Source: Candidatus Polarisedimenticolaceae bacterium (lineage in GTDB: Bacteria; Acidobacteriota; Polarisedimenticolia; Polarisedimenticolales; DASRJG01). From it: a stretch of 64,000 nt of DNA. Positions 22,576 to 25,002 of the stretch are shown here, piece by piece. The position numbers and the translations under genes were made by a program. The DNA is taken from assembly GCA_036376135.1 (NCBI GenBank), contig DASVAW010000158.1:1-64000 (forward strand). Reading direction: 5' to 3'. How positions within the stretch are numbered: the stretch's first letter is position 1; each line of letters opens with the position of its first letter. The notes under the pieces were generated by a model, which worked only from the letters and a program-made list of their open reading frames with translations, did not search any database and was not told the origin of the DNA.

Positions 22576-22956
22576 TCAAGCCGAGGCGGCTGCGTCCTCC
22601 GGCATCTCGACGGTGCCTTCGAACTGTCCGCCGGGGGCGATGACCAAGCCCTTGGTCTCGAGCACGACGTGCCCGATGACCCGTCCTCCCGGCTGGATCT
22701 CGAGACGCTCGCGGACGTGGAGCGTTCCGCGAACGACGCCGGCGACGCACAACGTCGCCACGCGAAGCTCCTGCGACTCGATCACGCCGTGCGGTCCGAC
22801 GATGAGCGCGGAAGACGATTCGATCTTGCCGCGAATCTCGCCGTCGACGCGAAGGACTCCTCGGACGTTCAGGTCGCCCTCGAGGAGGGTGCCTTCGCCG
22901 AGGAAGCCGAGGATCTCGTCGGGAGCCGCTTCGTTCCGGGTCTTTCGTCCGAGCAT
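22576..22956 (-). CDS. Bactofilin (polymer-forming cytoskeletal protein)
   Basis: A 126-residue bactofilin. A short disordered N-terminus is followed by a right-handed beta-helix of repeated six-residue turns (GDLNVRGVLRVDGEIRGKI and similar), ending in an acidic Ala-rich tail. Bactofilins self-assemble into nucleotide-free filaments that position cell-wall enzymes or, in Myxococcus, the ParABS machinery. Its place directly downstream of parB supports a link to chromosome segregation, by comparison with Myxococcus (established for that genus, inferred here). The 222-base gap toward parB contains a palindrome array that may control it. Confidence 0.92.
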   Translation of the reverse strand: MLGRKTRNEAAPDEILGFLGEGTLLEGDLNVRGVLRVDGEIRGKIESSSALIVGPHGVIESQELRVATLCVAGVVRGTLHVRERLEIQPGGRVIGHVVLETKGLVIAPGGQFEGTVEMPEDAAASA

Positions 22957-23070
22957 GCCGTACTGCGTTGCCAGATGCGTACCAGGGAATTCGATTGAGG
23001 GAATCGGCTTTATCTCGGTGCGGCTTACGGCCCGGGGCGATCGGTCACGGAATTGTAGTGTCTGACTTCA

Positions 23071-23175
23071 GCCGACGAAATTGTCGGCGACACCTATGCG
23101 CCGACATTTGTGTCGGCATACTTCACTAGCAGACATAATTGTCGGCAGATTGCATTTGCCGACCATTCTGTCGGC
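23071..23175. repeat. Array of four 18-bp palindromes with exact 29-bp period
   Basis: Four copies of GCCGAC-N6-GTCGGC begin at 23071, 23100, 23129 and 23158, each start exactly 29 bases after the last. The six central bases are AT-rich (GAAATT, ATTTGT, ATAATT, CATTCT). Copy 3 has one arm change (GCAGAC). The three 11-base spacers (from 23089, 23118 and 23147) share no sequence. A weaker fifth copy may lie at 23043-23060 (11 of 18 matches, 28-base offset). The array fills the gap between the parB stop and bactofilin. It could be a protein-binding array (operator or centromere-like) or a series of RNA hairpins. It does not match the parS consensus and is not CRISPR-like. Confidence 0.9.
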
Positions 23176-23178
23176 GAG

Positions 23179-24117
23179 TCACGCCGACGGTGGATTGCGG
23201 CGGCGGCCGGCGTCGAAGAGGAGGTTGTAGAGACGATCGAGCTCTTCCGGCCCGAAATAGTGCAGCTCGAGCCGACCCCCCTTCCCCCGCCCCACGATCC
23301 GGACGCGGGTGCCGAGGACGCGCTCGAGCTTCTGCTCGGCCGCGGCGACGTTCGGGTCTTTCCGCGTCGCGACGGTCTTCCTCGCCGAAGCCGCCCCTTC
23401 GCGGCTCTGGCGGGTGACCCACGCTTCCACCTGGCGAACGGACCAGCCTTCCTTTTCGACCCGCTCGGCGAGCTCGATCTGCGCGTTGGGCGTCGCGAGA
23501 CCCAGGATCGCTCTCGCCTGCCCCATCGAGAGTTTTCCCCGTCGAACGCGTTCCTGGACCTGCCGGGGCAGCTGCAGGAGCCGGAGCACGTTCGTGACCG
23601 TGACCCGGCTCTTCCCCACGCGGTCCGCGACCGCCTCCTGCGTCAACCCGAGGTCCTGAAGGAGCACCTGGTACGCCTGCGCCTCCTCGATCGCATTGAG
23701 CTCCGCGCGCTGGACGTTCTCGATCAAGGCCAGCTCGAGGAGCCGCGCGTCCGGGACATCCCGCACGACGGCGGGGATCCGGTGCAGCCCCGCGCGCTGG
23801 GCGGCCCGCCAGCGTCGCTCGCCGGCGATCAGCTCGAAGTGCCCATCGCCACGGGGTCGGACGACGACCGGCTGGATCAGCCCTTGGGACTTGAGGGACT
23901 GCGTGAGCTCGGCCAGCGCCTCCTCGTCGAAATCCTGACGAGGCTGTCTGGGGTTGGGGTGGATCCGATCGATGTCGATGTGGCTCTCGCCGGAGGGGAC
24001 CCCACGGGTCTTCGTGTCGGGGGCCGCGGCAGCCGGAACGCCCGGTGTCGGGGGGGCGGGACGTGGTGCTTGGGGGATGAGGCTACCGAGGCCCTTCCCC
24101 AATGCCTTGCGCTTCAT
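23179..24117 (-). CDS. parB: Chromosome partition protein ParB (CTPase clamp)
   Basis: A 312-residue ParB/Spo0J. The N-terminal KALGKGLGSLIP contacts ParA. After a Pro-rich linker comes the CTP-binding domain with IHPNPRQPRQDF, the box LIAGERRWRAAQRAG and ALIENVQRAELNAIEEAQAY. The helix-turn-helix (LTQEAVADRVGKSRVTVTNVLRLLQLP) binds parS. The C-terminal part is the dimerisation domain. ParB loads at parS and spreads as a sliding clamp to segregate origins. It overlaps parA by 35 bases. The palindrome array begins just past its stop. Confidence 0.96.
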   Translation of the reverse strand: MKRKALGKGLGSLIPQAPRPAPPTPGVPAAAAPDTKTRGVPSGESHIDIDRIHPNPRQPRQDFDEEALAELTQSLKSQGLIQPVVVRPRGDGHFELIAGERRWRAAQRAGLHRIPAVVRDVPDARLLELALIENVQRAELNAIEEAQAYQVLLQDLGLTQEAVADRVGKSRVTVTNVLRLLQLPRQVQERVRRGKLSMGQARAILGLATPNAQIELAERVEKEGWSVRQVEAWVTRQSREGAASARKTVATRKDPNVAAAEQKLERVLGTRVRIVGRGKGGRLELHYFGPEELDRLYNLLFDAGRRRNPPSA

Positions 24118-24874
24118 GTTCGAGGAACTCCTTGGCGAGATTCAGGTACGCCTCCGCCCCTTTGGAGCGGATGTCGTACAGGAAGATCGGCTTGCCGTGG
24201 CTCGGCGCCTCGCCCAGACGGATGTTGCGAGGGACCACCGTGCGAAAGACGCGATCGCCGAAGACCGCCCGAACTTCGTCGACGACTTGTCTCGAGAGGT
24301 TGGTCCGCTCGTCGTACATCGTCATGAGGACACCCCCCACCGTGAGGGCCGGATTCAGGACCTCTCGGATTCGATCCAGCGTATCCATCAGCTGCGCGAT
24401 CCCCTCGAGGGCGAGGTATTCGCACTGGACGGGAATGAGGACCGCATCCGCCGCCGTCAGCGCATTCACCGTCAGCAATCCGAGGGACGGAGGGCAATCC
24501 AGGAAGACGTGATCGTAGGCGTCCCGAACGCCTCCGAGCGAACCACGCAGCCGGTACTCCCGTCGCTCGGCGTCCACGAGCTCCACCTCCGCTCCGATGA
24601 GGTGTCGGTCCGACGGGACGAGGGCGAGGCAGGGGAGACCGGGAACGGGAACGGCCAGCGAGGCCAGTTCGGCGTCGCCGACAAGCGCGTCGTAGAGCGA
24701 CGCCCGCTCGGCGTCTTCCGGGAAACCCAGCGCGCGGGTGGAGTTGGCCTGGGGATCGGCATCCACCAGGAGAGTCCGGCGCTCGGCGATCGCGAGGGCG
24801 GCGGCGAGGCTCACCGCCGTCGTGGTCTTCCCGACCCCGCCTTTCTGATTGACGATCGCGATGACTTTGCCCAA
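24083..24874 (-). CDS. parA: Chromosome partition ATPase ParA (Soj)
   Basis: A 263-residue deviant-Walker ATPase. IAIVNQKGGVGKTTTAVSLA holds the signature lysine and P-loop, VDADPQANST is motif A', and HVFLDCPPSLGLLTVNAL is Walker B. Start: TTG at 24872-24874 gives the usual N-terminus GKVIAIVNQKGG and has GGGAG five bases upstream. A longer reading from ATG at 24928 would translate through a parS-like site (MFHVERR...) and has no similar ribosome site, so it is less likely. ParA binds DNA non-specifically and moves ParB-parS complexes. Confidence 0.93.
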   Translation of the reverse strand: MGKVIAIVNQKGGVGKTTTAVSLAAALAIAERRTLLVDADPQANSTRALGFPEDAERASLYDALVGDAELASLAVPVPGLPCLALVPSDRHLIGAEVELVDAERREYRLRGSLGGVRDAYDHVFLDCPPSLGLLTVNALTAADAVLIPVQCEYLALEGIAQLMDTLDRIREVLNPALTVGGVLMTMYDERTNLSRQVVDEVRAVFGDRVFRTVVPRNIRLGEAPSHGKPIFLYDIRSKGAEAYLNLAKEFLEHEAQGIGEGPR

Positions 24875-24912
24875 CGACGCTCCCGGGCCGCGGAATCTAG
24901 CACGAGCACGGC

Positions 24913-24926
24913 GTTCCACGTGGAAC
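24913..24926. promoter_or_regulatory. parS-like site 1
   Basis: GTTCCACGTGGAAC is a perfect 14-base palindrome, differing from the canonical parS core GTTTCACGTGAAAC at two symmetric positions. It lies about 40 bases before the TTG start of parA. parS sites near parAB are the normal loading points for ParB. Confidence 0.88.
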
Positions 24927-24953
24927 ACGGGACCCGCGTGCTCGAGGCGGGGA

Positions 24954-24967
24954 GTTCCACGTGGAAC
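24954..24967. promoter_or_regulatory. parS-like site 2
   Basis: A second identical GTTCCACGTGGAAC, 41 bases from the first (start to start). Two identical sites so close, in the parA upstream region, support real ParB binding and possible autoregulation of parAB. Confidence 0.88.
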
Positions 24968-25002
24968 GTCGGCACGCCACGCGAGCCGCTGCCGAGGCCG
25001 CT

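Follow-up and report, generated by a model that had tools for sequence, protein, structure and literature searches.

Results

A palindrome array beside parB1

The window analysed here, a stretch of 64,000 nucleotides from the genome of a Candidatus Polarisedimenticolaceae bacterium, contains a chromosomal parAB locus on its minus strand. It comprises parB1 (23179..24117), encoding a canonical chromosomal ParB with ParB_N, HTH_ParB and ParB_C domains, and parA1 (24083..24928), a ParA-family ATPase gene whose start codon is uncertain. Two canonical parS-like sites with the core GTTCCACGTGGAAC, neither assigned to a strand, lie at the parA1 start: CGTTCCACGTGGAACA (24912..24927), a putative ParB1 site, and AGTTCCACGTGGAACG (24953..24968). 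The gap between the parB1 stop (23179, minus strand) and the neighbouring bactofilin gene (22576..22956, also minus strand) holds an array of four unstranded palindromes, GCCGACGAAATTGTCGGC (23071..23088), GCCGACATTTGTGTCGGC (23100..23117), GCAGACATAATTGTCGGC (23129..23146) and GCCGACCATTCTGTCGGC (23158..23175).

The unit starts at 23071, 23100, 23129 and 23158 are exactly 29 bp apart, the strict periodicity for which the array had originally been singled out. Three of the four units match the form given for all of them, GCCGAC-N6-GTCGGC, and the third carries one mismatch, a C-to-A change that turns one half-site into GCAGAC. A weaker fifth copy proposed at 23043 was discarded, with 6 of its 12 arm positions mismatched. 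Shuffled versions of the window gave 2.6 scattered matches per 64 kb at up to one mismatch, and four copies never fell within 110 bp in 60 Markov simulations; clustering of this kind is beyond chance expectation. The whole source genome holds 11 exact copies of GCCGAC-N6-GTCGGC, among which only the three in the array have an AT-rich centre. When a four-base AT core is required and one mismatch is allowed, six matches are found, namely the four array copies, one copy 5' of a second parA gene (parA2, below) and one other. The four-palindrome array beside parB1 is thus a real element.

The array travels with parB1 throughout one order

In all ten genomes examined from the order (the Candidatus Polarisedimenticola group of the Acidobacteriota), two to seven palindromes lie directly 3' of parB1. 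The parB1 loci of 14 class members from outside the order were read, and none has the array; everted clusters were absent elsewhere among 247 genomes of the phylum, and a single chance-like case of repeated dyads 3' of parB1 was met beyond the order. The gene that follows is bactofilin in the source genome and two relatives (G000, G001, G002), atpH in five others (G003-G006, G008), and something else again in G007 and G009. The association is therefore with parB, and not with bactofilin or ATP synthase; the proposed setting at a segregation locus holds, the bactofilin neighbour is not constant, and the suggested control of bactofilin or ATP synthase expression is not supported. Conservation across the order had been named as a test and was found for the palindromes, though not for the exact 29-bp period. 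Neither a lack of conservation in close relatives nor a multitude of copies across the genome, the two outcomes held to count against the element, was observed. The array is an order-wide, order-specific DNA element that travels with parB1.

Two loci depart from the usual arrangement. In G007 the array sits between parB1 and a convergent gene, with no promoter following, and in G003 an extra palindrome pair, 30 bp apart, lies within mnmE. The G007 region 3' of parB1 (L211:990-1950) also combines its seven palindromes with long inverted GC-rich repeats, and is perhaps a small mobile insertion. Palindromes of the form GCCGAC-GTCCTC/GAGGAC-GTCGGC, with a REP-type look, occur in Gallionella, Verrucomicrobia, Phycisphaerae and others among the matches listed (L065-L177). 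Membership of the array in the REP/MITE repeats was considered and rejected, as genome-wide dispersal was not found.

In the order's 42 array sites, a unit is 18 bp long and consists of two everted copies of one 7-bp half-site, GCCGACA-N4-TGTCGGC. The half-site reads GC(C/A)GAC followed mostly by A, with positions 1, 4, 5 and 6 invariant: 83 of 84 half-sites are GCCGAC or GCAGAC (the latter in 9/84), the seventh-base A is weaker (57/84), and the full GCCGACA is present in 49/84. The centres are AT-rich, as first noticed (21% G+C over the 42 sites). Spacings of 19, 29 or 30 bp make up 26 of 32 intervals, the others being 26, 26, 46, 68, 392 and 428 bp; the mnmE pair adds one further 30-bp spacing beyond those 32. 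Units are mostly paired, 19 or 29/30 bp apart, a difference of about one helical turn, and these steps of ~10-11 bp are suggestive of phasing along the helix. Short inter-unit linkers measure 1, 8, 11, 12, 28 or 50 bp, and never 2.

The conservation pattern is that of DNA, not RNA

The original prediction had offered two roles, binding of a factor to DNA or serial RNA hairpins. Hairpins 3' of parB that control bactofilin or ATP synthase, or that terminate or stabilise the parB mRNA, would fit the observation that, for either strand, the region folds better than shuffled versions of it (z -4.8 and -6.2), but such folding is expected of any palindrome array. Arm covariation, which had been put forward as potential support, does not follow the pattern of RNA: arm pairing is broken, not preserved, in 7 of 8 variant units. 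Palindromes placed between convergent genes (G007) or inside the coding sequence of mnmE (G003) fit hairpins poorly, as does the presence of the same half-sites at parA2, and there is no Rfam match within the window. We regard an RNA role as very improbable. Because RNA-like covariation is missing, and given the G007 array and the mnmE pair, we take it to be a DNA element, and the proposal of a binding factor fares better: the array probably binds a protein.

A second parAB operon and its palindrome, parS2

Outside the window, the source genome encodes a second parAB operon, parA2B2 (G000:C129, L196:2553-4317). ParB2 has ParB_N and HTH_ParB domains; the Pfam ParB_C domain, matched in ParB1, is unmatched in ParB2, which possibly has a diverged dimerisation domain. 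A half-site palindrome lies 7 nt 5' of a TTGACA box at this operon, and a unit 5' of the parA2 promoter is found in four genomes (the source genome and three others, in families f1 and f2) and is absent in family f3. In some genomes of the order, what may be a second dyad (CCACA/TGTGG type) separates the parA2 start from the promoter, and one genome (G004) has several ParB-like matches beyond ParB1 and ParB2.

Within parB2 of the source genome lies the 16-mer TGTCGGCGCGCCGACA. It is an instance of TGTCGGC-NN-GCCGACA, a 16-bp palindrome of parS format that we name parS2. The pattern emerged from an unguided search for dyads common to par loci, in which many arm-gap combinations were examined; later genome-wide counts used the fixed pattern with a reversed-pattern control. 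parS2 is present at the second par locus across the class (35 of 41 class genomes, usually once per genome, with zero control matches) and in 105 of 247 Acidobacteriota genomes, about once in each. With ParB2 orthologues defined by E below 1e-43, a cut-off that we placed where the listed values leave a gap, 103 of the 247 genomes have both site and protein, 2 the site only, 38 ParB2 only and 104 neither (Fisher p about 3e-34, a significance inflated by genome relatedness). Of 79 mapped sites, 75 lie in parB2 or at most 50 kb away: 22 inside the gene, 38 no more than 2.5 kb from it and 15 farther off. Some genomes have a cluster around parB2, with five sites in 16 kb in G236 and four in 53 kb in G128.

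In genomes of the order, parS2 falls in parB2 codons for CRQADI or CRRADI. Beyond the order it often lies outside parB2, so it cannot be put down to amino-acid conservation alone. Among ParB2 carriers without an exact parS2, 16-mers with the single mismatch GCAGACA occur inside parB2 (G027, G090, G170) or within about 1 kb of it (G095). In sum, parS2 is a 16-bp palindrome at its own parAB locus that co-occurs with a putative cognate ParB, and it is likely, from this distribution, to be the cognate site of ParB2. The 16-mer was not found in the literature searched, in which coverage of subscription journals was small; parS2 is apparently an undescribed second chromosome-partition site, spread phylum-wide at the second parAB locus.

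Chromosomal positions of the two par loci

The usual place of chromosomal parS is close to the origin (PMC7333895). Positions were read from sampled, coarse cumulative GC skew in three readable assemblies (G005, G154 and G128), the skew of G037 being uninformative. In the single contig of G005, the skew minimum near 3.6 Mb coincides with parB1 at 3.639 Mb; the sign change, at 0.65-0.8 Mb, is close to parB2 (0.815 Mb). parB2 also lies at 4.257 Mb in G154, where the skew switches at about 4.05-4.25 Mb, and at 1.299 Mb in G128, within the skew maximum at 1.26-1.44 Mb. These data support a position of parB2 at the replication terminus in the three skew-readable genomes; a terminal position phylum-wide is not established. 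Both parB genes were placed in G005 only, the one genome in which parB1 was seen at the origin. Like parS, the array is thus close to parAB and to the origin, the latter as judged in G005 alone.

The array and parS2 share a half-site

The array and parS2 are built from one and the same half-site, GCCGACA/TGTCGGC, arranged differently: everted with N4 in the array, inverted with N2 in parS2. The heptanucleotide repeated in the array is therefore, at the sequence level, one half of the putative ParB2 site. The same C-to-A substitution (GCAGAC) is tolerated in arrays and in parS2-like sites, and in G002 the everted and inverted forms overlap upstream of parA2, as GCCGACATTTTTGTCGGCGCGCCGACA. Specificity of ParB versus Noc is set by residues in and near the recognition helix (PMC7383237). 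Some ParB2 residues are constant within the order and not seen beyond it. Three of the clear ones map to the HTH region, a Q and an R preceding the HTH and a V/I position in its recognition helix, and ParB1 shows no such residue there; the correlation is one on a single branch.

Discussion

We propose that the array is an order-specific DNA site, on the origin side, at which ParB2 docks; this protein is the putative centromere-binding partner in a second chromosomal ParABS. This is our preferred reading, held with moderate confidence, and the everted versus inverted geometry is the main doubt about it. Inter-unit linkers that never measure 2 bp, the weaker seventh base and the lack of a unit at the parA2 promoter of family f3 also speak against it. 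Under this proposal, the HTH domains of ParB2 would bind the array half-sites cooperatively, and the array would hold ParB2 beside parB1 at the origin. In families f1 and f2, the lone unit ahead of the parA2 promoter may serve to autoregulate the parA2B2 operon, and roles of the array could include ParB2 titration, coupling of the two par systems or help with origin organisation.

Alternatively, the array might be an operator through which an unrelated protein encoded elsewhere in the order, a dimeric transcription factor or a nucleoid protein, regulates par genes, its identity with the parS2 half-site being partly coincidental. Gapped 18-bp palindromes are ordinary dimer sites, four genomes have one ahead of the parA2 promoter, and the distribution is order-specific, all of which an operator would accommodate; we nevertheless think it rather unlikely, since coincidence would have to explain both the seven-base identity and the shared tolerance of one substitution, and the array accompanies parB even where no promoter follows (G007). 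No candidate factor turned up incidentally. The constant position directly 3' of parB1 could also point to a second binding mode, or a spreading or condensation site, of canonical ParB1. That protein, however, already has canonical parS-like sites with a different half-site at parA1 and shows no order-specific residue in its HTH, and the unit occurs at parA2 too, which together make a ParB1 site quite doubtful. That the units are mobile or REP-like palindromes without a function for the host is scarcely credible: GCCGAC palindromes with GTCCTC/GAGGAC-type centres are indeed dispersed in other phyla, among the matches listed, but in the order the AT-centred units gather at par loci, and few stand alone at other places.

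Among known systems, parS of the ParB/Noc family is the closest relative of parS2 (PMC7383237, PMC7333895). parS2 is likewise a 16-bp palindrome that starts with TGT and ends with ACA, and it lies in or beside its parB, sometimes clustered around parB2; it differs in its core, in belonging to a second ParB and in lying near the terminus where placed. The array is not a parS site, as had been recognised at the outset, because its units are 18-bp everted dyads and not 16-bp inverted palindromes. It resembles more the half-parS sites of Pseudomonas aeruginosa, 7-nt sequences bound by ParB (PMC10419367), in consisting of 7-bp half-sites of a putative ParB site. Those half-sites are scattered over the genome, whereas the array presents phased palindrome pairs at one conserved place and is known from its sequence. 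An array of ParB2 half-sites in everted form would be a new geometry. Noc and its NBS sites offer another parallel, that of a ParB paralogue having a DNA specificity of its own (PMC7383237), which for ParB2 is suggested by sequence; Noc lacks the usual ParA-stimulating N-terminal peptide (PMC7333895), whereas ParB2 shares an operon with its own parA2.

Taken as a whole, a widespread second ParABS of the Acidobacteriota with a terminus centromere, whose ParB2 is brought to the origin by everted arrays in the Polarisedimenticola group, is a tentative picture that we consider possible. If it is true, the replication axis carries the same partition protein at either end. Terminus parS2 together with origin half-site arrays would make ParABS action on the terminus, or linking of terminus and origin, directly testable, and the array and parS2 would represent a natural case of ParB site geometry changing alongside changes in the ParB HTH.
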